This document shows, one piece after another, positions 1-11,098 of a stretch of 11,098 nucleotides of DNA. A program made the translations under genes and the position numbers. Source of the stretch: Actinomycetota bacterium (GTDB lineage: Bacteria; Actinomycetota; Thermoleophilia; RBG-16-64-13). The DNA lies in contig JAMDDA010000023.1 of NCBI GenBank assembly GCA_023488925.1, positions 1 through 11,098 on the forward strand. Reading direction: 5' to 3'. Below the pieces are notes generated by a model. The model was not told where the DNA came from. It did no database searches and saw only the letters and a list, made by a program, of their open reading frames with translations. Numbering within the stretch: position 1 is the stretch's first letter; every line of letters begins with the position of its first letter.

Positions 1-205
1 GGGAGTGCCACGAAAGAAAGACCCACCCCCGGATGACAGGTGAGGCAGAGCCCGTCCTTCTCCTTGCGGACCATGCGCGGAAACTGGGTGCCGTGGGGAT
101 CATGGCAGCTCGAACACCGCATGGTCTGCTCGTGCCAGGGATCGACAGCCGGAGCGTCGAACGGGTGGTTCTCCTGAGGGTGGGTCTTTCTTTCGTGGCA
201 CTCCC
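1..205. repeat. Exact 28-nt inverted repeat at the window edge (arms 1-28 and 178-205)
   Basis: Bases 1-28 are the exact reverse complement of bases 178-205; the match ends at base 29. The inner arm codes for a normal heme segment (CGECHERKTHP), while the outer arm, read in the same gene, gives VGLSFVAL with no heme logic. A 28-base exact inversion within 205 bases inside a coding gene is not expected by chance. The likeliest explanation is a fold-back chimera or assembly-graph end at a contig terminus. Confidence 0.85.
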
Positions 206-1292
206 CGCAGAGCGGTACCTGCCGCTTCGCCAACAAGGGACCCCACTGCGAGCCGTGGGGCACGTGGCAGTTTTGGCAGCTCCCCGGCTCTCTCCCCTGA
301 CGGGAGGTCTTGCCGTGCGGAGTCAGCGCGGTCTTCTCCACCTTGTCGGCGTGGCAGGCACGACACACGTCGTTCCCCTTCGCGTGCAGCAACTTGGCGA
401 AGGGTGACCCGTGCGGGAAGTGGCAGCTGGTGCAGTTGACCTGCCCGGGCACCGGGTGGTGCGAAGCCGCGGAGAAGAGCGCCTCCACCGAGGCGTGGCA
501 GGTGTAGCAGAGCCGCGGCGGCGGCGCCTTTAGCATCGGGGCGTACTCCGAGACGTGAGGCAGGTGGCACTTTGTGCACGCCTCTCCCGCCGGGTTGTGG
601 GTGACAGCCTGGCTCAGCTCGCCCGCGACGTTCTTGTGGCACTCCAGGCAGACGTCGGGCTGCTTCTCCTTGGTCATTCCCGGGTAGTCGGAGGCGTGAG
701 GCGAATGGCAACCGATGCAGTCGCGCGCGGCCCACGGAGGGTGCTTCTGCTTTGCCGAGTCCATGTCGGCCACGAAGTGGCAGGTGGTGCACAGGGTGTT
801 CGGCGGTTGCTTGAGCATCTTGGGGTAGACGGTCCCGTGCGGATCGTGGCAGACCGTGCACTCCCCCAGTTTGAACGGGGGATGCTGATGGGCATCGTCG
901 TAGGCTTTGCCCACGCTGCCGTGGCAGATCACACAGAGCTCCCGCTGGGAAGCGATCAGGTATGTGCCCCGCTCGCGTGGTGCGCCGTCCGCACCCGAAA
1001 GGGGATGGGTGCGGTGACAGCGCAGACACGGGACTTTGTCCGACGCGTGGGGGATACCGGAACGGACGGTATCGGGATGACACTTGCGACACTCCTCGGC
1101 GGAAACCTTGCTGCCCCCGGCCGGAGGCACGATGGTGTTGAGGCTGAGAAAAGAGCAGGAACGGATTGCGAGAAGAACGATCAGGATGACCGCCAGCAGG
1201 ACTGCAAGCAGCAGCCTGCCGAGAAGAGGGCGACGCCTCTCCTTGCGCTCGGGCTGCCCGCCCCCTCCCAAGTCTGGCACGGTCTCGGTCAC
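1..1292 (-). CDS. Large TM-anchored paired-CxxCH multiheme cytochrome c (at least 15 hemes), 3' end truncated
   Basis: Partial: open for 430 codons to the window edge with no stop. GTG at 1292 is the first possible start after an in-frame TGA, with GAGGG 4 nt upstream. A basic segment (ERKERRRP) precedes one membrane helix (about 24-43), then fifteen CxxCH sites at 68, 89, 120, 145, 168, 192, 215, 239, 262, 287, 310, 339, 362, 393 and 416. Hemes alternate in the paired-CxxCH (doubled CXXCH) pattern: every second or third site reads CxxCHxPHG or CxxCHxPHA/V (CTVCHDPHG, CIGCHSPHA, CTSCHFPHG, CQNCHVPHG, CSSCHDPHG). This differs from the MPHP-type cytochromes upstream. Such proteins act as long electron conduits. 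The sequence after residue 421 (bases 28-1) duplicates an internal segment in reverse and gives a non-heme hydrophobic tail, so the true C-terminus is unknown. Confidence 0.85.
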   Translation of the reverse strand, partial: MTETVPDLGGGGQPERKERRRPLLGRLLLAVLLAVILIVLLAIRSCSFLSLNTIVPPAGGSKVSAEECRKCHPDTVRSGIPHASDKVPCLRCHRTHPLSGADGAPRERGTYLIASQRELCVICHGSVGKAYDDAHQHPPFKLGECTVCHDPHGTVYPKMLKQPPNTLCTTCHFVADMDSAKQKHPPWAARDCIGCHSPHASDYPGMTKEKQPDVCLECHKNVAGELSQAVTHNPAGEACTKCHLPHVSEYAPMLKAPPPRLCYTCHASVEALFSAASHHPVPGQVNCTSCHFPHGSPFAKLLHAKGNDVCRACHADKVEKTALTPHGKTSRQGREPGSCQNCHVPHGSQWGPLLAKRQVPLCGECHERKTHPQENHPFDAPAVDPWHEQTMRCSSCHDPHGTQFPRMVRKEKDGLCLTCHPGVGLSFVAL

Positions 1293-1586: not shown

Positions 1587-2534
1587 TTACTGACCGGTAG
1601 GCTCCACCTGCTTGAACTCGCCCGTGACGTGGCAGTGGGCGCAGGTCAGCGGGTTGTGACACTTGAAGCAGCCTTCGGCGCCTTTGCCCTTCACGATGGG
1701 CGGGTGTTGGAGGCGCCACGGCTTGTCACCGGGTTTATAGCCGGGATGGTGACAGTCGTTGCACAGGTACTCCGCCGGGTGGCAGGTCGTACAGGCCTGC
1801 TTACCCACGCTCTTCACCGTTTGGGGGTGGGTTTTCTGCCAATCGGCGGCGTGCGGCATGGGTGTCTTGTGGCAGCTGTCACAGAAGCTCGCCGCGTGGC
1901 ACATCTCGCAATACTTGCGATCCTCCTTGGCCATCTCCGCGTGGCGGGCCGAGACCGTCTTCACCACGCCGGGATTGGCGCCCGGCAACCAGCCGCCGCC
2001 ACCGTGATTGGCCGGCACGAGCGGGAAGTCCGCCGGGTGACATGCCGAGCACGCCCCGGGGGCGATCGCATTGGCTTCCTGGCTGTGGCAGGCAAAGCAC
2101 GCCTGCATCTGCGGCTTCACGATCTGGTCGGGCTTGTGCGTGGGCACCGCGTGGCAGTCCTCGCACTTGAAGCCTTTGTTCAGGTGCAGCGCGTGGCTGA
2201 AGCTCCTGGTCAGCACCTTGGACTTCGCCAGGAACTGGTTGAAGTCCGAGTGGCAGTCCGTGCAGATCTTGAAGCTCTCCGACACCGGAGCGACCGATTC
2301 GGCACCGCCGGTCGTACTGGTGGTCGCTTCCCCGGTGCCCGTGGTCGCTGTGCCCCCGGTCGTGCTCCCCGTACTCTCGGTCGTTGCCTCCGTGCTTGCG
2401 GTCGTGGTCTCGGTACTGCCGACCGTCGTGGTCGTCTCGTTGGCGGACTGACACCCGGCCACCGCGAGTGCAAGGATGGCGAGCAGGAGCGCCGCGAAGA
2501 GCAAGAACGCAACTCCCTCTTTCCTTCTTCGCAT
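1587..2534 (-). CDS. Decaheme c-type cytochrome lipoprotein with Thr-rich spacer
   Basis: A 315-residue lipoprotein: basic MRRRK start, hydrophobic 8-26, and lipobox VAGC with Cys28. A spacer of about 50 residues follows (about 30-79), made almost only of Thr, Ser, Gly, Ala and Glu, probably carrying the heme domain away from the membrane through the wall. Ten CxxCH sites: CTDCH 91, then CEDCH, CFACH, CSACH, CEMCH, CDSCH, CTTCH, CNDCH, CFKCH, CAHCH. It parallels the decaheme lipoprotein at 5463-4525 heme for heme (FSHALH versus FNHPAH before heme 2; KPDQIV versus KPGRIV after it; CNDCHH at heme 8). Separated from the main block by 153 nt, with an excellent SD, and followed by a long palindrome, so it may be a separately tuned unit. 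Likely role: abundant extracytoplasmic electron carrier facing the cell wall. The Thr-rich spacer is commonly seen in actinobacterial and firmicute surface lipoproteins. Confidence 0.9.
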   Translation of the reverse strand: MRRRKEGVAFLLFAALLLAILALAVAGCQSANETTTTVGSTETTTASTEATTESTGSTTGGTATTGTGEATTSTTGGAESVAPVSESFKICTDCHSDFNQFLAKSKVLTRSFSHALHLNKGFKCEDCHAVPTHKPDQIVKPQMQACFACHSQEANAIAPGACSACHPADFPLVPANHGGGGWLPGANPGVVKTVSARHAEMAKEDRKYCEMCHAASFCDSCHKTPMPHAADWQKTHPQTVKSVGKQACTTCHPAEYLCNDCHHPGYKPGDKPWRLQHPPIVKGKGAEGCFKCHNPLTCAHCHVTGEFKQVEPTGQ

Positions 2535-2687: not shown

Positions 2688-3653
2688 CTATTCCTTCACA
2701 AACCGACCCTTCTCGTGGCAGCGCTCGCAGAAGCTCTGCTCATGGCACACGAAGCACCGGGTGGTCCCCTGCGTTTTCACCACGGAACCGTGCTGGGAAG
2801 GCAACCACTGGGACGTGGGGGCATACCCGGCGTGGTGGCACTGGTTGCAGAATTGCGGCGTGTCGGGGTGGCAACGGACGCAGGCTTTCTGGTTCCGCTG
2901 AGCGATGTCGCCGTGACTCGAGTACCAGTAGGGGGGATGCTGAGAGGGAAGGCCGTGGCACCGTATGCAGAACGTGGTGTCCCGGGATTGGTGGCATTTC
3001 TCGCAGATGGCGCTTTGCGTCAAGGCCACTCGACCGTGCGCCGAGGCCCACGAGGCCGGGTGGGGCATCTCCACCCCGTGGCATTGCTCACACCACACCT
3101 TCACGTCGTGGCACTTGGCGCACGATGTACGGGTCTTTTCGTCGGGATTCAGGTGCACCACGGGCTCGTTCAAGCCCGGGGCGATCTCGTCGAGTTTGCG
3201 GTGGCAATTCGCGCAGTCGTTCGGCGCAGTCTCGCCTTGGTGGCAGGAGAGGCAGGTCATCATCAGGGGCGCGGGCGCGTCGAAGTGCCCGAGTGGCGGT
3301 TGGTGACAGGTCGCACAGGCCACGCCTTGCTCCAAGTGCGTCCGGTGCGAAAAGATCAGGTCGCCGCTCGCGGCCGGTTTCTGCAGATAATCAGGGTGGC
3401 ACGCTTCGCACGTGCGGAACGGCTCCCCCCCGAGCTCCTGCGGGGCGGCGGAGACCACGGCCGCCGCCCCTCCCGGCAGCGCGCGCAGTTCCTGGAACTC
3501 ACCCTCGGCGACGATTCCCCGGGGCTGCATCGCCCCGGAACCGTTCTCTGCTCGGTGGAACGGATAAAGCACGACCATGGCGGCCCCGCCGGCGAGGAAC
3601 ACCGCCGCGACGGCCAGCAGCACCCAGCGCACCGGCATACGGCGGACCGTCAC
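2688..3653 (-). CDS. Dodecaheme c-type cytochrome with N-terminal membrane anchor
   Basis: A 321-residue protein starting at GTG 3653 (GTGA overlap with the previous stop), with AGGAGG about 6 nt upstream. A single hydrophobic helix (about 9-31) without a lipobox Cys suggests an uncleaved anchor. An approximately 45-residue Gly/Ala-rich spacer precedes twelve CxxCH sites: CEACH, CATCH, CLSCH, CANCH, CAKCH, CEQCH, CEKCH, CIRCH, CVRCH, CNQCH, CFVCH, CERCH. The middle and C-terminal part carries the diheme module seen in the previous gene (CEQCHGVEMPHPASW and degenerate forms CIRCHGLPSQHPPYW, CNQCHHAGYAPTSQW). The C-terminal pair (CFVCHEQSFCERCH) matches the ends of the dodecaheme NapC-type protein and both decaheme lipoproteins. 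Likely a membrane-tethered electron carrier on the outer face. Last gene of the tightly spaced block; 153 nt separate it from the next gene. Confidence 0.88.
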   Translation of the reverse strand: MTVRRMPVRWVLLAVAAVFLAGGAAMVVLYPFHRAENGSGAMQPRGIVAEGEFQELRALPGGAAAVVSAAPQELGGEPFRTCEACHPDYLQKPAASGDLIFSHRTHLEQGVACATCHQPPLGHFDAPAPLMMTCLSCHQGETAPNDCANCHRKLDEIAPGLNEPVVHLNPDEKTRTSCAKCHDVKVWCEQCHGVEMPHPASWASAHGRVALTQSAICEKCHQSRDTTFCIRCHGLPSQHPPYWYSSHGDIAQRNQKACVRCHPDTPQFCNQCHHAGYAPTSQWLPSQHGSVVKTQGTTRCFVCHEQSFCERCHEKGRFVKE

Positions 3654-4528
3654 GACCCCCCTCCTCTCCCGTGCATGCGATGGATGTCATGGCACGTGGA
3701 ACAGTCTTTCTCCACGTGGCAGAGCATACAGGCGGCCCGCTTCGCCCGAGCCTCCTCCTGATGTCTCGTGCCCCAGTCCTTGGGGTGAGGCATGGGGGTG
3801 CCGTGACACGCGGCACATTGTTCGGGCGCGTGGCAGCGGGCACACACGGCCGAGCCCTTGGCAGCCGCGGCGGCGCCGTGACTCCTGGTCCAGTCGGCCG
3901 GATGGGGCATCTCCACCGGATGGCAGCGCAGGCAGAAAGTCTTCTGGTGGCAGCGCGCGCAAACCTGCAGGCGTGGATATGCCACCTGCCCGTGCTTCTC
4001 GGTCCACTGCGCAGGATGCGGCATCTGCACGCCGTGGCACTCCTGACAGTGCAGGTACACGTTGTGGCAGCGCTTGCACACTTCACCCCCGTTGGCGACC
4101 ACCTCCCGGCCGTGGGCGGTGCGGTAATCGGGGGGGTGCGGCATGGACAGTCCGTGGCATTGAGCGCAGAGCTTTCGGTCGGGCTGCGGAGCGCCGCCAT
4201 GCCCCACCGACACGTGGCAGGTCGAGCACGTGATCCTCTGCCGGAGATGCAGGTCGTGCGAGAATTCCTTGCGGTTCTCGCCGCTCGTGACCTTGGCGAA
4301 ATCGGTATGACAGCGCAGGCAGACCTCGTTGGCTATGGGCAGCACCACGTTCGTCGTTGCGGTCGTGGCCTCGGCGCCCACGGTTCCCTGCGTCACCGCG
4401 CCGCAGCCGGCCGCCGCCAGCAGAACCGAGCCCAAGAGCACGAGGAACCCCACCCGGAGCCGAGCGGCGGCGCCTCCGCCTCCCTCCACCGTGCGCCCTC
4501 CTTCCCTCATACCGTGGAAACCCCTCAT
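3650..4528 (-). CDS. Undecaheme c-type cytochrome lipoprotein with repeated MPHP modules
   Basis: A 292-residue protein. ATG at 4528 overlaps the previous stop as ATGA, and a second in-frame ATG lies at 4510; translational coupling favours the first. A hydrophobic segment (about 26-40) ends in LAAAGC, with Cys42 as probable lipidation site, although Ala at -3 makes the lipobox less typical. Eleven CxxCH sites follow (CLRCH, CSTCH, CAQCH, CKRCH, CQECH, CARCH, CLRCH, CARCH, CAACH, CMLCH, CSTCH). Four of them are followed by the same tail: MPHPPDY, MPHPAQW, MPHPADW and MPHPKDW, each with a His three to four residues later. This gives a tandem array of roughly 45-residue diheme modules. No catalytic signature is visible, so it looks like an electron wire. 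The final residues are Gly-rich (GRGGGS) and overlap the next gene's GTG by 4 nt. Confidence 0.87.
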   Translation of the reverse strand: MRGFHGMREGGRTVEGGGGAAARLRVGFLVLLGSVLLAAAGCGAVTQGTVGAEATTATTNVVLPIANEVCLRCHTDFAKVTSGENRKEFSHDLHLRQRITCSTCHVSVGHGGAPQPDRKLCAQCHGLSMPHPPDYRTAHGREVVANGGEVCKRCHNVYLHCQECHGVQMPHPAQWTEKHGQVAYPRLQVCARCHQKTFCLRCHPVEMPHPADWTRSHGAAAAAKGSAVCARCHAPEQCAACHGTPMPHPKDWGTRHQEEARAKRAACMLCHVEKDCSTCHDIHRMHGRGGGS

Positions 4529-5463
4529 CCCGCGTGGACACCCCTCTTCTTGCCCGTCGCCACATGGCACTGCGAGCAGTACGGCGGCTCGTGACACGCG
4601 AAGCAGGGTTCGGCCCCCCCGGGCAGGACTACCCGCTTGTGCTGTGTGGTCCAGTCGGGCAGCCGGGCGAAGGCGGCGTGGTGGCAATCGTTGCAGAGCG
4701 CCTTCGCCTCGTGGCACTTCAGGCAGGCGTCCCGGCTCTTGGCGGCCGGCTCTTGGTGCCCGGCCGGGACCCAGTCCTCGGGATGCGGCATGTCCACCTG
4801 GTGGCAACTGCGACAGAAGCTGTCCTCGTGACACATCTTGCAGTAGAGCCGGCGGTCCAATGCCGCCCGCGCGTGGCGGGCAAGCCCCTTCCCCGGCTGC
4901 AGAACCCAGGTGGCCTGCTCGTGATCGGGGGTGATCCTGGCAATATCCGCGGTGTGGCACACGTCACAACCGGTGGGCGCCAATATCCCCTGGGGTCCGT
5001 GAGTCGTGCCGTGACACGTGAAACAGGTCTCCACCGGCACGTGCACGATGCGCCCCGGCTTATGGGGGAACTCTTGATGGCAGGCCGCGCACCGGATGCC
5101 CCGAGCGAAATGGGCCGGGTGATTGAAGATCAGCTTACGCTGCTTACGCCAGTCGAGCTCCCGGTCGAGCCGGTCGTGGCAGTTCGCGCACAACGAGATG
5201 AACGAGGCCGCGTTCTGGGCCGCTTGCGGGCCTTCTGCTTCGGCCGAAGCGACCTGTTCCGCAAAGACCGTGGAACTCACGGTGCTTTGGTCCACTCCGC
5301 ACCCGCCCAGGCCGAAGACAAGGGCGCCAAGGATCAGCGCCAAGACGCCGGCCAGCAGTAAACCCGCCCGCGGGTTTCCCTGCGCCGGAGCCCGCCCCCC
5401 CGCCTGCGGCCCGGGAGCCCCCGCCGGATCGGGTAACCCGTGCTGTATCGCCCGGCGGTCCAC
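4525..5463 (-). CDS. Decaheme c-type cytochrome lipoprotein
   Basis: A 312-residue protein from GTG at 5463, 2 nt after the preceding stop, with GGAG 5 nt upstream inside the end of the cytochrome b gene. A long Pro/Gly/Ala-rich leader precedes a hydrophobic stretch (about 34-51) and the lipobox LGGC with Cys55, so it is probably lipid-anchored on the outer face of the cytoplasmic membrane. Ten CxxCH sites: CANCH 92, CAACH 125, CFTCH 147, CDVCH 166, CKMCH 208, CRSCH 217, CLKCH 247, CNDCH 257, CFACH 287, CSQCH 296. Late hemes come in close pairs, with MPHPEDW after one of them. It is a clear paralogue of the decaheme lipoprotein at 2534-1587: same heme order, the KPGRIV/KPDQIV segment after heme 2, CNDCHH at heme 8 and paired C-terminal hemes. 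Likely an electron carrier between the quinol oxidases and outer acceptors. Overlaps the next gene by 4 nt (ATGA). Confidence 0.88.
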   Translation of the reverse strand: MDRRAIQHGLPDPAGAPGPQAGGRAPAQGNPRAGLLLAGVLALILGALVFGLGGCGVDQSTVSSTVFAEQVASAEAEGPQAAQNAASFISLCANCHDRLDRELDWRKQRKLIFNHPAHFARGIRCAACHQEFPHKPGRIVHVPVETCFTCHGTTHGPQGILAPTGCDVCHTADIARITPDHEQATWVLQPGKGLARHARAALDRRLYCKMCHEDSFCRSCHQVDMPHPEDWVPAGHQEPAAKSRDACLKCHEAKALCNDCHHAAFARLPDWTTQHKRVVLPGGAEPCFACHEPPYCSQCHVATGKKRGVHAG

Positions 5464-5465
5464 GA

Positions 5466-6170
5466 CTACTCCGGCTTGATCTTGCCCTCGCGGACAAGAC
5501 GATCGTACCAGGCGGCCTTGTCGTGTTTCAGGTGCTCTATGGGCACCTTGCCCGTGAAGATGACAGGATCCATGGGGAACACGTTCATGCGCAGGTGCGA
5601 ATTGTAGAGGTGTACGAAGAGGATCCAGCCGATGGCCAGGATGGCTTCGTCGCCGTGAATGATACGGGCCACGTTCAGGAAAATGCCCGACACGAACCTG
5701 CCCGTGACCGTGGGGAACCAGAGGGCGAACCCCGAGGTGCCGATCATGGCGATCCCCCAGAAGACCGCCCAGTAGTCGAACTTCTCCCAGAAAGTGTACC
5801 GTTCGAAGCGCGGCCGTTCTCCTCGATCGAAGAACCACTTGACCATCCCGATGAGATCGAGCAGATCTTTTTTCCAGAAGAGGATCGAATCTGGTCCGAT
5901 GATCTTCGCCTTCCTCACGACGATGTGGTAGGCAAGATAAAGCAGGTGCACCACGAAGTCGCCCACCATGAAACCCGCCATCACCCGGTGGATCAGGCCG
6001 GCGTTGTGGACGCCGCCCCAGAAGCTCATCATCGCCTGTGCCCAGAAATCGTAGCTGTATTTCAACGGCGGCCCGGTAAGGGCGGCGCCGATGAAGGTGG
6101 TCATCATGACGAAGTGGCTCAGCCGGTGGTACCAGGAGAAACGGACGTAGTAGTCCTTGCCCTCTTCCAT
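5466..6170 (-). CDS. FdnI/HydC-type membrane cytochrome b (copy 2, short form)
   Basis: A 234-residue four-helix cytochrome b, with helices at about 19-38, 57-85, 132-153 and 166-190. Candidate heme ligands are His19, His61, His172 and His187, with His15 and His192 also kept. They line up with His26/68/179/195/22/200 of the longer copy at a constant offset of 7, then 8 after a one-residue difference in helix IV. It shares the WEKFDYWA block and the FPMDPVIFTGKVPIEH block, but stops shortly after and lacks the fifth helix of copy 1. The family exchanges electrons with the quinone pool; the adjacent heptaheme cytochrome c is the expected partner. The start ATG touches the previous stop codon with no gap, and the next gene begins 2 nt after its TAG. 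Annotation as formate dehydrogenase gamma would be misleading, since no formate dehydrogenase subunits are in the window. Confidence 0.9.
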   Translation of the reverse strand: MEEGKDYYVRFSWYHRLSHFVMMTTFIGAALTGPPLKYSYDFWAQAMMSFWGGVHNAGLIHRVMAGFMVGDFVVHLLYLAYHIVVRKAKIIGPDSILFWKKDLLDLIGMVKWFFDRGERPRFERYTFWEKFDYWAVFWGIAMIGTSGFALWFPTVTGRFVSGIFLNVARIIHGDEAILAIGWILFVHLYNSHLRMNVFPMDPVIFTGKVPIEHLKHDKAAWYDRLVREGKIKPE

Positions 6171-7229
6171 CTAGACCTCGCCCCCCTTCTCGTCGTCATG
6201 AGCGGGCGCGTCGCCCCCCGCGCCCGGCTCCTTGCCGGTTTCTTCCGTCGCCCCCCGCGCGCGCATGGACTCGCGCACGGACTCCTCCTCCAAGGCCCTG
6301 ATGAAGCCGAACAGGCGGCCCAAGCCCCGGCCAAGCACGCCCAGTATCATCCGCGTCTCCTTCTGCATGTGCACGGTGGTATAGGCGATGCCGACGACGA
6401 GAACCACGATCAGCAGGGTGCTGAAGAACAAGTACACCGCCCGTACACCCCACCAGGCGTTCTCGAAGCCCTCGTCCAGGTGCATTTGAAAATAGGTGAA
6501 GCCCTTGGTCGCCCCGGGGTGGCACTTGCGGCACTGCCTGACCGTTTCTTCCTCGCCGCTCTTGAGCGCCAGGTTCTCGTGGAAACCGTGGCAGTCGAAG
6601 CACGTGGCCGCCGGACTGTAACCCAGGGAGAGCGCCTTGAAGTGGAACTCGTGCTTCGCCTTCTCGAACTTGTCCTTGTGACAGCGCCCGCAGGAGTCAC
6701 GAGCCATGCTCATCTTGAAGTCGGCCGACTCCTGCCCCAGACGCACCCGCCTGATCTCGTGGCTGCCGTGGCACGAGATGCAGATGGGTCCCGCCTGGTC
6801 CTGATAGTAGAGCTTCGCATGGGTGGAGGTCTGATACTGCATGAACTCATTGGGATGACAGCTCTCGCACGCCTCGATCGCCACCTGGCGGAAGTCCTTG
6901 GTGGCGTCCAGCTGGTGCTGCGGAATGGTGAGCACGAAGCCTCGATGGCAGGTGGAGCACGCGTTGTTCCCGTGCACCGACTTCTTGAAAGCCTGCGGGT
7001 TCACATACAGGGATGTGGGGCCGTTCGGGTCGGGGGTCGGGTCGACGAAGTTCGGATCGCCGTGACAGATGAGGCAACCCTCGGGATCGAGCGCCCAGGC
7101 CGTGCCCGCGAGCGCAGGCAGAAAGACCAGTACCAGCGCGACCGCCAGCACCCAGAGCCGCACTCCGGGCGGCCACGGCAGCCGGCGCCCTCCGGGCGGC
7201 GGCCACGACCCCAACCTCCTCACGCGCAT
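6171..7229 (-). CDS. Heptaheme cytochrome c with C-terminal membrane helix and cytoplasmic tail (copy 2 of b/c cassette)
   Basis: A 352-residue paralogue of the gene at 9107-8151. The Arg/Pro-rich N-terminus leads into a signal peptide (hydrophobic about 26-42, probable cleavage after AWA at 46). Seven CxxCH sites lie at 52, 91, 121, 150, 180, 210 and 233, then a membrane helix (about 262-285). Unlike copy 1, it ends in a roughly 65-residue charged tail (EEESVRESMRARG and onward) predicted to be cytoplasmic, which might contact a soluble partner. ATG at 7229 is preferred because GGAGGGG sits 6 nt upstream and gives a normal signal peptide. A GTG at 7295 would shorten the 70-nt gap to 4 nt but adds 22 unconvincing residues. 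The TAG stop directly abuts the ATG of the cytochrome b gene, so the pair is coupled as in copy 1. Likely electron-accepting subunit of a menaquinol-oxidising b/c complex. Confidence 0.88.
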   Translation of the reverse strand: MRVRRLGSWPPPGGRRLPWPPGVRLWVLAVALVLVFLPALAGTAWALDPEGCLICHGDPNFVDPTPDPNGPTSLYVNPQAFKKSVHGNNACSTCHRGFVLTIPQHQLDATKDFRQVAIEACESCHPNEFMQYQTSTHAKLYYQDQAGPICISCHGSHEIRRVRLGQESADFKMSMARDSCGRCHKDKFEKAKHEFHFKALSLGYSPAATCFDCHGFHENLALKSGEEETVRQCRKCHPGATKGFTYFQMHLDEGFENAWWGVRAVYLFFSTLLIVVLVVGIAYTTVHMQKETRMILGVLGRGLGRLFGFIRALEEESVRESMRARGATEETGKEPGAGGDAPAHDDEKGGEV

Positions 7230-7299
7230 CAGAGTCCCCTCCGATCCATCCGTGGGTTCCTTTCCTCGAGACGCTCTCCGCCGGCCGGTCGTCACCGGA

Positions 7300-8151
7300 T
7301 CAGGAGACCAGCGGCCAGACGATCAGCAGGAGCGTATAAGTGGCAGCCAGGAACGCGAACAGCGTCACCAAGCCGGTGATCCATCTGAAGAGGCGGCGGC
7401 GCGGCGCCGGCGGAGCCGGAGTCACCACCTGGTCGAGCGTACCGTTTTTCAGCCGGTTCTCGTACTCCAGCGGGCGCTCGTGGATGTAGTGCTCCACCGG
7501 TATATAGCCTGAAAAGATCACTTCATCCGCCGGAAAAGACTCCGGGCGACCGTGAGCCGAGAAGAAATGGACGAAGATGAATATGACTCCGGTGGCCAGG
7601 AACGCCTCGTTGGAGTGGACCACCAAGGCGACGTTCAAGGCGACGCCCGGCAGGAGACGCGCGGTCGCCTCGGGGAACCACATCATGAGACCCGATCCAC
7701 CGATGAGGATGGTACCGGCAAACAGCGCCCAGTAATCGAACTTCTCCCAGTAGGTGAAGCGGTTGAGCGCCGGCTTCGGTCCCCTGCCGAAGAACCAGCG
7801 AAACATGCCCTTCATGTCCTGCCAGTCCTTCTTGCCGGGCACGATGGAGTCGTCGCCGAAGATGGGACCCTTGCGGGCGGCCACGTAGTAGACCATGTAT
7901 CCCGTCTCCAGCACGAAGTAAAGGATGTTGATGACCGCCATGGTGCGATGGATGAAACCGGCCGCCTCGACGCCACCCAACCCGTCTATGAGCAGCTTGG
8001 AGAAGTAGCTCTCTTTGAACTTGAGCGGGATGCCGGTAAGCACCAGCCCGAAGAAGCTGAGCATCGCCAGATAATGGTTGAAACGGTGGAACGTGCTGAA
8101 CCGCCGGTAGACCAGTCGCACGCCTTCCTTGGCATCGGTGCCCATGGTCAT
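7300..8151 (-). CDS. FdnI/HydC-type membrane cytochrome b with an extra C-terminal helix (copy 1)
   Basis: A 283-residue membrane protein of the formate dehydrogenase gamma/Ni-Fe hydrogenase cytochrome b type. Four core helices are visible at about 26-46, 66-91, 139-160 and 172-198, with candidate heme ligands His26, His68, His179, His195 and nearby His22 and His200. A fifth helix (about 257-280) follows a Pro/Arg-rich linker and is absent from the shorter paralogue at 6170-5466. Conserved WEKFDYWALF precedes helix III, and FPADEVIFSGYIPVEH follows helix IV. The family transfers electrons between membrane quinones and an extracytoplasmic partner through two b hemes. Here the adjacent partner is the heptaheme cytochrome c, so quinol:cytochrome c oxidoreduction is the likely reaction (inference). 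ATG at 8151 is coupled to the preceding stop, with GGGAGG 7 nt upstream; a second ATG two codons later is possible. Confidence 0.9.
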   Translation of the reverse strand: MTMGTDAKEGVRLVYRRFSTFHRFNHYLAMLSFFGLVLTGIPLKFKESYFSKLLIDGLGGVEAAGFIHRTMAVINILYFVLETGYMVYYVAARKGPIFGDDSIVPGKKDWQDMKGMFRWFFGRGPKPALNRFTYWEKFDYWALFAGTILIGGSGLMMWFPEATARLLPGVALNVALVVHSNEAFLATGVIFIFVHFFSAHGRPESFPADEVIFSGYIPVEHYIHERPLEYENRLKNGTLDQVVTPAPPAPRRRLFRWITGLVTLFAFLAATYTLLLIVWPLVS

Positions 8152-9107
8152 CAGTGGCCTCCCTTCCGGAAGTACAGCCCGTCCTTCAGCCCGCGGTAGA
8201 TGTAGAGCAGCGTATGCACTCCGCCGAACGAGAACACCGCGATGATCAGGACCAGGTAGAACATGGCTACCAAGAAGACCACGAGCGGAGCCTTGGGCGA
8301 AGTCGGCGTGATGTGCACGAGAAAGGTGGTGAACCCCTTGGACGCTTCGGGGTGACACCGCCGACAGGTTCCGAGGATGTTGGCCTGGGAGAGAGTCGAC
8401 TGCGGGTTCGCCACCGGCAGGATGCTGTGCGACCCATGACAGTCGACGCAGGTGGCGGCCGCCTGCCGGCCGAGGGTGACGGCTTTGCCGTGGTAAGTGT
8501 CCAGGTACGTGGCTTCCCGGCCGCCGTGACAACGCCCGCAGACGTCCTGGATACCCTGCCGATACGCGAGCGTGTTCACCTTCTGGATGGCATGCGAGCC
8601 GTGGCAATCGACGCACAGGGGGGCCTTCTCGCTCTCGGCGGAGCCGGAGCGGGACAGCGTGCCGTGGTAGCTCTGCTTGTACATCTCGAACTGATCGTCG
8701 TGGCAGTTCCGGCACGCTTCACCCGCCGTCTGCGCGAAGAACTCGGCGTTCGATACCATCTGGTGGGGATCGGGCGTAAACCCGGTGTGGCACGCGTTAC
8801 AGGGCAGCAACCCATGCACCGAGTCTTTGTACGCCGTCGGGTCGACGAAAAGACTCTTGGCCCGACCGTCGACCTCCACTTGCCCCAAGTACGGCTGGGA
8901 GTGACAGGTGAGACACCGCTGGGTGAAATCCGTCACCGGCGCGACCGGCTGATTCTGCGGCAGCGGCGCGCCTCCGGCGGCCGGTGCCGGCGCGGCTGCG
9001 AGGACCACGATGAGCAGGGTCGAGAAAGCAAGAAAGAGGGCCCGCCCACTCGAGAACGTGAATTCTTTCGCTAATTCCCGCGCACTATTCCGAGCCCCTC
9101 CGACCAA
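8151..9107 (-). CDS. Heptaheme cytochrome c with C-terminal membrane helix (copy 1 of b/c cassette)
   Basis: A 318-residue protein starting at TTG, with GGAGGG 5 nt upstream and 12 nt after the previous stop. A hydrophobic segment (about 23-40), followed by an Ala-rich region, looks like a signal peptide. Seven CxxCH sites follow: 65, 103, 132, 165, 190, 220, 248. A C-terminal helix (about 274-295) and a short basic tail complete it. The CVDCHGSH motif occurs twice (165, 220), a pattern common in cytochrome c3/c7-like and NrfA-associated multiheme proteins. The stop overlaps the start of the cytochrome b gene by one base (TGATG), so the two are translationally coupled and probably form a complex: b hemes oxidise menaquinol and this subunit collects the electrons on the outer face. 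Same heme count, spacing and topology as the product at 7229-6171, so the two are paralogues. Its exact family is not certain from sequence alone. Confidence 0.88.
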   Translation of the reverse strand: MVGGARNSARELAKEFTFSSGRALFLAFSTLLIVVLAAAPAPAAGGAPLPQNQPVAPVTDFTQRCLTCHSQPYLGQVEVDGRAKSLFVDPTAYKDSVHGLLPCNACHTGFTPDPHQMVSNAEFFAQTAGEACRNCHDDQFEMYKQSYHGTLSRSGSAESEKAPLCVDCHGSHAIQKVNTLAYRQGIQDVCGRCHGGREATYLDTYHGKAVTLGRQAAATCVDCHGSHSILPVANPQSTLSQANILGTCRRCHPEASKGFTTFLVHITPTSPKAPLVVFLVAMFYLVLIIAVFSFGGVHTLLYIYRGLKDGLYFRKGGH

Positions 9108-9119
9108 CCCGTCCCTCCT

Positions 9120-10085
9120 CTACTTGGTCGTTACTCCCTCTTTGGTGTGGCAGTCCGCGCAGAAGTTGGGCGAGTGGCACACCAGACACGGCTCGCCGCC
9201 GCCCTGCGCGAACTCGGGGTGTGACCGTACCCAGTCCGGAGGATGCTGCACCTTGTGGCACTTGTTGCAGAAATCCTCCTGGTGGCAGCCGAAACACGCC
9301 TCCCGGCCCTCGGCCTCCACTTTCTTGCGGTGCGTGTACCGCCACGTGGGGTCCTGGTGGGTGGCCGGAGGCTTGCTGTGGCAGTTCTCGCAGAACTTGG
9401 ACTGCTCGGAATGGCAGCGGCGGCAGTCCGCGATGCGCTCTTTGGCCAGCTTCCCGTGGTTCTCGATGGCGTTCTGGGGATGCGCCAGCGCCTTGTCCGG
9501 CGGGGAAAGGTGGCAGGTCCCGCAGGCGTTGGGCGCCTTCTTGCCGTCGTGGCACATGTAGCAGACGTCCATGGGCGGCGAGCCGCCGGCAACCCCCTCG
9601 AGCGGATGAACCACGTTGAAATGGCAGTCCGAGCATTTCAGGCCCTCCATCTCCACGTGTTCGCGGTGCGGGATCTTGATATCGCCGCCGGGCGACACCT
9701 GGCGATCGAGGCTGTGACACTGCAGGCAGCTCTCGTTGGTCGGGCGTTTCACGTCGGGGGGCATGCCGCCGTGGCCGAAGAAGTTCGCGTAAATCTCTTT
9801 GTAGGAGAGCACCTTGTGCTCCAGCTGCTTGAGAAACCCGGGATCGACATGGCAGGCGATGCAGTTGACATTCGCGTGGGTCGACTGCTCCCACAATTCC
9901 ACGGGCTTCTCCATCAGATGGCAGTTCGAGCAAAAGCTCGGTGTGGAGGTCATGGCCACCGGCAGATAGATGGCCGAAAAGCCGACGAAGGCGACAGCGG
10001 CGCCCATGAGGAGCAGATAGCGCAGCTTGATGCGTACCGGCCGGCCGCTCTCGTCGTAGATCCGGAGGAACCGCGGCCACTTCAT
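9120..10085 (-). CDS. NapC/NirT/NrfH-family dodecaheme membrane cytochrome c
   Basis: A 321-residue paralogue of the upstream gene. It shares the N-terminal cytoplasmic basic stretch, one membrane helix (about 23-45) and the NrfH-like tetraheme domain: CSNCH 52 with Met58 in CxxCHxM, CIACH 75, CLQCH 120, CSDCH 151. Next comes CYMCH 175/CGTCH 188, matching the extension of the upstream gene (both have the order CxMCHDG, then APNAC). A further six hemes follow: CRRCH 221, CENCH 232, CFGCH 264, CNKCH 273, CLVCH 300, CADCH 309. The last four resemble the C-termini of the 10- to 12-heme cytochromes later in the operon, so this looks like a quinol dehydrogenase domain joined to a periplasmic electron-wire domain. 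All twelve sites are ordinary CxxCH; the third replaces the CxxxxCH of the upstream paralogue. A strong SD (GGAGGAGAGG) lies inside the end of the upstream gene. Probable role: menaquinol oxidation and electron export. Confidence 0.9.
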   Translation of the reverse strand: MKWPRFLRIYDESGRPVRIKLRYLLLMGAAVAFVGFSAIYLPVAMTSTPSFCSNCHLMEKPVELWEQSTHANVNCIACHVDPGFLKQLEHKVLSYKEIYANFFGHGGMPPDVKRPTNESCLQCHSLDRQVSPGGDIKIPHREHVEMEGLKCSDCHFNVVHPLEGVAGGSPPMDVCYMCHDGKKAPNACGTCHLSPPDKALAHPQNAIENHGKLAKERIADCRRCHSEQSKFCENCHSKPPATHQDPTWRYTHRKKVEAEGREACFGCHQEDFCNKCHKVQHPPDWVRSHPEFAQGGGEPCLVCHSPNFCADCHTKEGVTTK

Positions 10086-10086
10086 G

Positions 10087-10869
10087 CTAATGGAACCTCT
10101 CCTCCATGCGCTGCTCCTCGGTCAGCTTCTCGAAGACGCCCGGGTCGTGACACCCGCTCCGGGCGCAGAAGCTCTGGTCGCTGTGGTGGCACTTGAAGCA
10201 GTCACGCTCGCGGCCCTTGGCGATCTGACCGTGCTCGGCGAGAGCCAGGCCGGGGTGCTCCTCGGCAGCCGAGGGAGGGCTGCGGTGGCAAGTGGTGCAG
10301 GCATTGGGGGCACGCTCGCCATCGTGGCACATGGCGCACACACCCATGGGGGGGACCGGTGTGCCGCCCTCGGGCGTGTGCACCACGTTGAAATGGCAGT
10401 CTTTGCACTCCAGGCCCCGCATCTCCACATGCTCCTTGTGGGGGATGATCAGATCGCCCGAGGTGGAGGCTTTGCGGTTGGTGGTGTGGCAACCGGTCTG
10501 GAGGCAGTTCTCGTTGGTGGCGGACCGGATTTCCTTGGGCATCTCGGCCCGACCGATGAAGTTCAGATAGACGTTCTTGCTGACGATCACCTGATTCACG
10601 AGGTGGTTCAGCACGCCCGGCTTCACGTGACACCGATCACACCCGAACTTCGCGTGGGTGGAGTGCTCCCACGACTTCACGAAAGGCTCCATGACGTGGC
10701 AGTTGTAGCAGAAGGACGGGGTGGTGGTCACGTAGAAGGGGACGAACAGAAAAGCCGCGGCCACCGCCGCGAAGCCAAGCACGACGAGGGCCAGGTAACG
10801 CTTCTTGATGCGGACGGCGCGACCACGCCTGTCGTACACGCGGAAGCGCAGGGGTCTTTCGTCAGTCAT
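10087..10869 (-). CDS. NapC/NirT/NrfH-family octaheme membrane cytochrome c with two CxxxxCH heme sites
   Basis: A 260-residue protein with an N-terminal membrane anchor (about residues 25-47), preceded by a basic cytoplasmic segment (RRGRAVRIKKR). It has eight heme-c sites: CYNCH 54, CDRCH 77, CLQTGCH 122, CKDCH 155, CAMCH 178, CTTCH 191, CFKCH 224 and CARSGCH 235. The first four sites follow the NrfH/NapC quinol-dehydrogenase plan, including CxxCHxM at heme 1 (Met60) and the W-x2-S-T-H stretch after it. The last four form a C-terminal extension absent from plain tetraheme NapC. The family takes electrons from menaquinol and passes them to extracytoplasmic cytochromes. Sites 3 and 8 are CxxxxCH, a spacing known from some class III cytochromes. 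The ATG at 10869 is chosen because AGAAGG lies 5 nt upstream and the N-terminus aligns with the next gene (RFRVYD versus FLRIYD); a GTG at 10995 is a weaker alternative. First gene of the operon; the next ATG follows its TAG by 1 nt. Confidence 0.9.
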   Translation of the reverse strand: MTDERPLRFRVYDRRGRAVRIKKRYLALVVLGFAAVAAAFLFVPFYVTTTPSFCYNCHVMEPFVKSWEHSTHAKFGCDRCHVKPGVLNHLVNQVIVSKNVYLNFIGRAEMPKEIRSATNENCLQTGCHTTNRKASTSGDLIIPHKEHVEMRGLECKDCHFNVVHTPEGGTPVPPMGVCAMCHDGERAPNACTTCHRSPPSAAEEHPGLALAEHGQIAKGRERDCFKCHHSDQSFCARSGCHDPGVFEKLTEEQRMEERFH

Positions 10870-11006
10870 CCGTACCTTCTGGCTCAGCTCGACCCACCAC
10901 CGGCCGCACCTCGCATCCACCGACCCACGAAACGCGAGGGTACCGACCGGTCTGCTCTCCTCTTCCCGCGGACCCCGGAAACCGCCCACCGACACAAACC
11001 ACAGTT

Positions 11007-11098
11007 TTCACAAGCGGCCCGCAGTCTGCTACTATAGCACTGTTTCGAAGGCTGTCTACCCCAAAAACACCAGGGTTCCGCGAGGAGGGGCGACATTG
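11007..11098 (+). promoter_or_regulatory. Possible divergent promoter and ribosome binding site at the right edge
   Basis: On the plus strand, TTCACA (11007-11012), a 17-nt spacer and TACTAT (11030-11035) make a moderate promoter that overlaps the -10 region of the minus-strand one. Downstream, AGGAGGGG (11083-11090) is followed by a TTG at 11096-11098, with a 5-nt gap. Together these suggest a divergently transcribed gene whose first codon is the last three bases of the window. Only the start codon is visible, so no product can be named. Confidence 0.35.
11031..11058 (-). promoter_or_regulatory. Sigma70-like promoter for the cytochrome operon
   Basis: On the minus strand, TAGACA (11058-11053), a 16-nt spacer and TATAGT (11036-11031) each differ from consensus by one base. 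The predicted transcript start is near 11024, giving a leader of about 155 nt before the ATG at 10869. The leader (11023-10870) shows no gene and no strong hairpin that I can see. It is the best promoter match in the window and is correctly placed for the first gene of the operon. Confidence 0.55.

Follow-up and report, generated by a model that had tools for sequence, protein, structure and literature searches.

The window analysed here, 11,098 nt in length, is the entire contig C112 (GenBank JAMDDA010000023.1) of a draft metagenome-assembled genome (MAG) of an Actinomycetota bacterium (1.25 Mb in 221 contigs, 65% complete). It carries an operon of cytochrome genes, all on the minus strand and transcribed in the order A-B-C-D-E-F-G-H-I-J-K (Table 1). 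As a first-pass annotation made from the DNA letters had described, two NapC/NrfH-like proteins (A and B) and two pairs of a heptaheme cytochrome c and a cytochrome b (C+D and E+F) are followed in the same direction by anchored cytochromes with 10, 11 and 12 heme motifs; the range given there was right in substance but ended two genes short, J and K lying beyond it. With moderate confidence, the operon is read here as encoding menaquinol:cytochrome c junctions of two topologies together with the first part of the multiheme wire that they feed, and its use, judged from the sequences, is probably in extracellular electron transfer.

Table 1. Genes of the cytochrome operon in order of transcription. 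Lipoboxes and anchors (A, B and G to K) were read from the sequence.
Gene	Product	Position	Strand	Features
A	NapC/NrfH-type cytochrome c	10087..10869	-	N-terminal anchor; 6 CXXCH + 2 CX4CH
B	NapC/NrfH-type cytochrome c	9120..10085	-	N-terminal anchor; 12 CXXCH
C	Heptaheme cytochrome c, pair 1	8151..9107	-	TTG start assumed; C-terminal stretch hydrophobic
D	Cytochrome b, pair 1	7300..8151	-	PF01292; all four invariant His kept
E	Heptaheme cytochrome c, pair 2	6171..7229	-	Long N- and C-terminal helices (model); 7 CXXCH + 7 other invariant His
F	Cytochrome b, pair 2	5466..6170	-	Four long helices; fold of the formate dehydrogenase N cytochrome b subunit
G	Putative lipoprotein	4525..5463	-	10 CXXCH; LGGC read as lipobox; GTG start assumed
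H	Putative lipoprotein	3650..4528	-	11 CXXCH; AAGC read as lipobox
I	Anchored cytochrome	2688..3653	-	12 CXXCH; N-terminal hydrophobic anchor
J	Putative lipoprotein	1587..2534	-	10 CXXCH; Thr/Ser-rich linker; beyond the first-pass range
K	Anchored cytochrome	3..1292	-	N-terminal hydrophobic anchor; 15 CXXCH up to the contig end, where the gene is cut

Neighbouring genes from A to I are spaced by -4 to +70 nt, and gaps of 153 nt and 294 nt then precede J and K. For the first start codon, position 10869 is more probable than 11058. A promoter scan gave a sigma-70-like site on the minus strand at 11058-11031, a weak indication since the window holds two such sites where 0.9 would be expected. The best match to C was a 97% identical protein labelled Thermoleophilia bacterium. 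Products G to K look like anchored multiheme cytochromes from their translations, and J has a Thr/Ser-rich linker (2285-2462, minus strand) that separates its putative lipobox from the heme domain, as would suit a stalk crossing the cell wall.

The gene set is conserved among relatives. A scan of the contigs of named genomes using F gave eight loci, seven labelled as Actinomycetota or one of its classes and one from a Desulfobacteraceae MAG that has only a related b subunit. Genes A to H are in the same order in all seven Actinomycetota loci, and I and J follow in six of them, the contig of the seventh (L013) ending inside H. K was found in three of the six relatives whose downstream side is covered. 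Because L011 and L013 are 99% identical over the operon stretch, the seven loci amount to six distinct relatives; these two belong to MAGs G086 and G097, of genera g10 and g12, and their identity may reflect mis-binning or transfer, G097 being listed with 5% contamination. Frame breaks split B and F in L012 and B and E in L013. Among 249 genomes searched across the class, F had a match at an E-value of 0.001 or better in 20 and at an identity of at least 84% in eight, namely the genome of the window and seemingly the same seven as in the locus scan, all of the window's family. Across the phylum, 12 of the 396 genomes searched had a match at an E-value of 1e-10 or better.

Both A and B belong to family PF03264, with scores of 45.3 and 67.8 bits (cut-off 24.1), and both fall below the 134.2-bit cut-off of the NCBIfam NrfH equivalog TIGR03153 (56.9 and 59 bits). 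The first-pass annotation had likened them to ImcH of Geobacter, a NapC/NirT-family quinol oxidase for extracellular acceptors (PMC12307469, as excerpted), but this likeness did not hold: the marks of ImcH given in the accessible part of PMC6295460 are three transmembrane (TM) helices, one CX3CH motif and a length of about 495-519 aa, while A and B have a single N-terminal hydrophobic stretch each (read from sequence), no CX3CH motif and lengths of 260 and 321 aa. By these features, A and B are NrfH-like proteins without the characters of ImcH. They share with the NrfH/CymA type the PF03264 domain, the N-terminal anchor and the heme-1 motif CXXCHxM, and differ from it in having 8 and 12 heme motifs, where NrfH/CymA-type NapC proteins have four, and in having no NrfA beside them.

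Alignment of B to the NrfH chain 2j7a_C placed Met58, Lys91 and Glu97 opposite Met49, Lys82 and Asp89 (residue numbers counted from the alignment). The Lys/acid pair (Lys82/Asp89 in NrfH) and the Met are residues which we take, from work on NrfH and CymA, to have a role in quinol oxidation. Among the aligned relatives (from which A of L009 and L013 and B of L009, L012 and L013 were left out) the heme-1 CXXCHxM was kept in 6/6 rows of A and 5/5 rows of B. The quinol-site pair was Lys/Glu in all five rows of B, whereas in A the Lys was replaced by Gln (five rows, the window's own A being of this kind) or Ser (one row) and the acid by Asn (all six). On this alignment A may not be an independent quinol oxidase but rather a partner or relay of B, the two perhaps forming one module, and the operon would then possibly hold three quinol sites instead of four. 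Of the four alternative oxidases claimed at first, the two module types stand, while the number four is unproven.

The two heptaheme c + cytochrome b pairs make up the second module type. C and E have seven CXXCH motifs each, and in both pairs the c and b genes lie back to back as separate frames with stop/start junctions, one-chain relatives being known at other loci. D scored above the cut-off of PF01292, and the assignment of F as a cytochrome b is backed by its fold, that of the formate dehydrogenase N cytochrome b subunit. The data support, for C+D and for E+F, a heptaheme cytochrome c with seven candidate bis-His hemes joined to a transmembrane cytochrome b with two candidate hemes. Sequence searches of the PDB returned nothing for E (E-values up to 0.01) or for the b-subunit profile (up to 0.001).

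Their closest counterpart is CbcBA/Cbc5 of Geobacter sulfurreducens (GSU0593-0594; cbcEDCBA), which according to the excerpts available likewise has adjacent genes for a membrane-bound heptaheme cytochrome c (CbcA) and a PF01292 cytochrome b (CbcB) (PMC7726332), an arrangement found in C+D and in E+F; the Cbc5 set also holds the 12-heme c subunit CbcC (PMC7894505). CbcBA is characterized by being needed for acceptors near -0.2 V. Compared with it, the window has two tandem pairs, two NapC-type proteins and lipoprotein multihemes, in a monoderm. The CbcL/MtoC/MtrH family, described in part in PMC9129911 as a low-potential quinol route, is also similar in joining a transmembrane diheme b part to a multiheme c part, and the seven motifs of C and of E are within its range of c-heme motif numbers (3-23); Geobacter CbcL, however, has its nine c hemes and six TM helices in a single chain, whereas the window has two chains and seven c hemes. 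The first-pass description of a CbcL-like function split into two genes was correct as to the split, but the split is not new, as CbcBA and the gene pairs of Carboxydocella exemplify (PMC7726332 and PMC6085454, in the sections consulted).

A recent duplication of one b/c pair into two was considered and found no support, a clade of D and F only being rejected (p-AU 0.012). In the tree of b subunits, D joined the single b subunit that occurs in another family of the class (98/100) and F formed its own clade (100/100); a topology uniting D and F with that other family was not rejected (p-AU 0.293), and the groups were named after the tree had been seen, several rows being long-branched. A quick tree of the heptaheme subunits, also with long branches, agreed in outline, C grouping with that other family (SH-aLRT 95). 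D and F thus appear, from these trees, to be separate lineages and not the product of a recent duplication.

Simpler or differently assembled operons were present in other lineages. In family f3 (six loci read of ten matched genomes), a NapC-type gene, a heptaheme c gene and a b gene are followed by multihemes and NapC-like proteins, with one b/c pair in each of the six loci. The first heme motif of several f3 NapC-like proteins is CXXCK in place of CXXCH (L045:7837-8820 and 11811-12866, L046:3022-3981 and 7013-8050, and L052:7714-8766; L050:6816-7790 keeps CXXCH), which would imply that the heme has an unusual ligand or needs a special lyase. A distant clade also has heptaheme c + cytochrome b pairs in tandem (L047:8163-12143, minus strand, and L048:6327-12787, plus strand), with no NapC gene in the stretch and next to genes whose translations read as kinase-like and response-regulator-like. 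Two loci from two other families of the phylum (L071:4299-15504 and L073:3597-14533) contain, in a single row, hemB, a radical SAM gene, a hemL-like gene, a heptaheme-like c, a b, two NapC genes, a 12-CXXCH NapC-like gene and a Rex-like gene, the gene names in L073 and part of those in L071 being read from translations. In L067, L068, L069, L070 and L072, a heptaheme-like c gene adjoins a b gene without a NapC pair of the window's kind, and L070:2-6441 combines in one block a cytochrome b of another type, two heptaheme c, a b related to D and an 18-CXXCH relative of G.

The comparison bears on whether A to K form one large complex with one job, in which A relays for B and the two b/c pairs are protomers of differing sequence. 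The tight spacing of A to I, the co-occurrence of A to H in all seven Actinomycetota loci and the replaced pair in every aligned row of A would agree with such a complex. The single pair of the f3 loci and the tandem pairs without NapC genes in L047 and L048 show, however, that the pieces of the operon are separable, and the separate lineages of D and F also speak against it. We regard a single complex as possible but rather unlikely; it is compatible with the reading as junctions feeding a wire and differs from it in the number of independent routes.

The surroundings of the operon were searched for a catalytic partner. NapC/NrfH proteins often serve nitrite, nitrate or sulfur-compound reductases, and the operon could be the electron-transfer arm of such an enzyme encoded nearby. 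Candidate enzymes do exist in these genomes: molybdopterin oxidoreductases (PF00384) were detected in all eight and NrfA-type proteins above cut-off in four, with no NrfA match in G000, G080 and G086. On the contigs of the operon, however, none of the listed PF00384 matches in the eight genomes was within 50 kb (four of these contigs are at most 45 kb long), the nearest lying about 79 kb away (G046), and the only NrfA on an operon contig was 84 kb off (G004). Flanking open reading frames (ORFs), read by eye with only the named ones scanned against Pfam, included no reductase and look like heme-synthesis, PBP, GGDEF and glycosyltransferase genes. The sequence upstream of A extends for 1.2-1.4 kb in L008, L010 and L011 and 2.9 kb in L013, and with such short contigs and flanks the comparison is strongest in G004, G016 and G080. 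Dependence on a nearby reductase is thus considered very improbable, and the first-pass view of a stand-alone conduit, for which a reductase beside homologous loci had been named in advance as the counter-evidence, agrees with what was found as far as the contigs reach. In G000 (C120:141-1415) and relatives, the molybdopterin oxidoreductase frames contain one in-frame TGA, as in selenocysteine formate dehydrogenases.

The neighbours that were identified by Pfam in G004, up to about 10 kb upstream, were HemA (glutamyl-tRNA reductase), HemB (ALA dehydratase) and a radical SAM/SPASM protein. In G080, some 14-16 kb past J on the downstream side are a class-III aminotransferase, taken as HemL, and a protein combining a Put_DNA-bind_N with a CoA_binding domain, taken as Rex. 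In L045 the f3 operon is flanked by UbiD and UbiA and, at its other end, by genes of the polyprenyl-synthase and CofH/MqnC types. In this phylum, CbcBA-like pairs are present beside menaquinone- or heme-synthesis genes in relatives. This context, with the size and conservation of the gene set, argues against a role in metal or stress detoxification or in charge storage with no growth-supporting respiration, an explanation suggested by the finding that cbcB and cbcA are among the Geobacter genes most upregulated under cobalt stress (PMC7726332, in the portion available) and to which we give very little credence.

A further quinol-oxidising complex lies beside the operon in L012 and L013. Just upstream of the operon in L012 (650-3791) are a 7-CXXCH NapC-like gene and then the genes of a Rieske protein, a cytochrome b of the b6 type and a small third subunit, and L013 (2-1633) also has Rieske and b genes upstream. 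The end of contig C219 in the window's own genome encodes a 7-CXXCH protein with 77% identity to the L012 one; the Rieske search gave no match in this genome, which its incompleteness may explain, and a match in seven of the eight genomes searched.

With respect to the envelope, Omp85 was found in none of the eight genomes (five of them at least 90% complete) and was detected in 7 of 14 control genomes, which supports the monoderm envelope supposed in the first-pass annotation. The data support a gene set that is inherited together, with no catalytic reductase seen nearby, in a lineage without Omp85, and quinone-linked membrane modules of two types in one conserved operon are supported as well.

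Under the junction-and-wire reading, menaquinol would be oxidised near the outer face by B, which A would assist as partner or relay, and near the inner face by the b subunits D and F; electrons would move on to the hemes of A, B, C and E and then to the lipoprotein multihemes reaching into the wall, and large surface multihemes encoded elsewhere would finally transfer them to an outside acceptor such as Fe(III). Candidates for this outer end of the chain are giant multihemes. The window's own genome encodes one with 1395 codons, 12 CXXCH motifs and Ig-like domains (L086:1098-5282, cut by the contig end), and the operon contigs of G046 and G076 carry, at a distance of 18-52 kb, ORFs of 1181-1718 codons with 12-35 CXXCH. 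Overall, giant multiheme ORFs ranged from 896 to 1718 codons with 12-35 CXXCH and included L084:827-5923 and 10106-14461, L087:7063-12216, L088:5969-9511, and L090:5923-8610 and 10716-14471. The two junction topologies should differ in proton bookkeeping, which could give the cell a trade-off between energy yield and acceptor potential of the kind described for Geobacter, where high acceptor potentials are served by ImcH, lower ones by CbcL and the lowest by CbcBA (PMC12307469 and PMC9129911, as excerpted).

We infer that electrons flow outward. In the opposite direction, an outside donor such as Fe(II) or a syntrophic partner would feed the multihemes, and the CbcBA-like b subunits would reduce menaquinone at the inner face. 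Formate dehydrogenase N reduces menaquinone, and the b subunits share the fold of its b subunit. Homologues of CymA and of CbcL/MtrH/MtoC are moreover reported for Fe(III) reducers and Fe(II) oxidisers alike in the accessible part of PMC6295460, and reverse flow was predicted for CbcBA in Seep-SRB2 (PMC10553843, also available in part). The NrfH-like quinol-site residues of B argue against uptake, which we consider unlikely. A more speculative extension, to which only a small probability is given, is a genetic "gearbox" in which quinol sites of opposite topology, in two diverged copies each, share one heme wire in a monoderm; the acceptor potential would steer the flow, or part of it would go back to the quinone site of the inner face, making a modular Q-cycle that has no Rieske protein, with A as a non-catalytic coupler.

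Several points weigh against menaquinol junctions feeding an outward wire. Sequence does not fix the direction of flow, as the Seep-SRB2 prediction illustrates. The quinol sites may number three or fewer, as A lacks the Lys/acid pair. F scores below the cut-off of PF01292, the heptaheme model is of moderate quality (pLDDT 77.1, pTM 0.57) and the heptaheme subunit had no significant fold match, the best PDB entries being hydroxylamine oxidoreductases at E-values of 0.24 and worse. The likeness to Geobacter CbcBA rests on composition, family and fold, and fused b/c relatives with 9, 6 and 9 CXXCH stood apart from C and E in the quick tree. Finally, among the 18 listed genomes of the family, nine had no match to F and G010 had distant matches only.

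Individual parts of the operon resemble known electron-exporting proteins, and some of their combinations have precedents, as far as the excerpted sources describe them. The mtr cluster of Rhodoferax ferrireducens has two cymA with mtrH and mtrABC, bringing two NapC-type and one b/c-type oxidase together (PMC6295460), and differs in being from a diderm, in its porin-cytochrome conduit and in having a single one-chain b/c protein instead of two split pairs. Carboxydocella thermautotrophica (Clostridia) has an ImcH homologue and two split b + multiheme c gene pairs (PMC6085454), by locus tag in three separate places and not in one operon. Closer in taxonomy, the actinobacterial cluster MCL4079323-32 of Parvivirga hydrogeniphila includes a putative quinol-oxidising multiheme, cytochrome c biogenesis and Rex (PMC9686372); L071 and L073, which have one b/c pair, resemble it by description. 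Two NapC-type genes and two split b/c pairs in one operon were not described in the titles and abstracts searched, the subscription literature lying largely outside that search. The first-pass impression that the combination matches no named system holds for the titles and abstracts searched, although a cluster of several oxidases has the diderm precedent of Rhodoferax. What looks new is the packing of two NapC-type proteins and two diverged CbcBA-like pairs into one monoderm operon.

Few studies have dealt with extracellular electron transfer in monoderm Actinomycetota, for which the operon would serve as a compact marker among uncultured lineages. If the b/c pairs and NapC proteins do differ in potential or proton yield, the operon would be a natural test bed for the matching of oxidases to acceptors, with the components side by side in one cell and one-pair relatives for comparison. 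Just upstream of A, on the opposite strand, L012 also encodes a membrane protein with no Pfam match (4038-4772, minus strand), and look-alikes of it are present in L007-L011 and L013.

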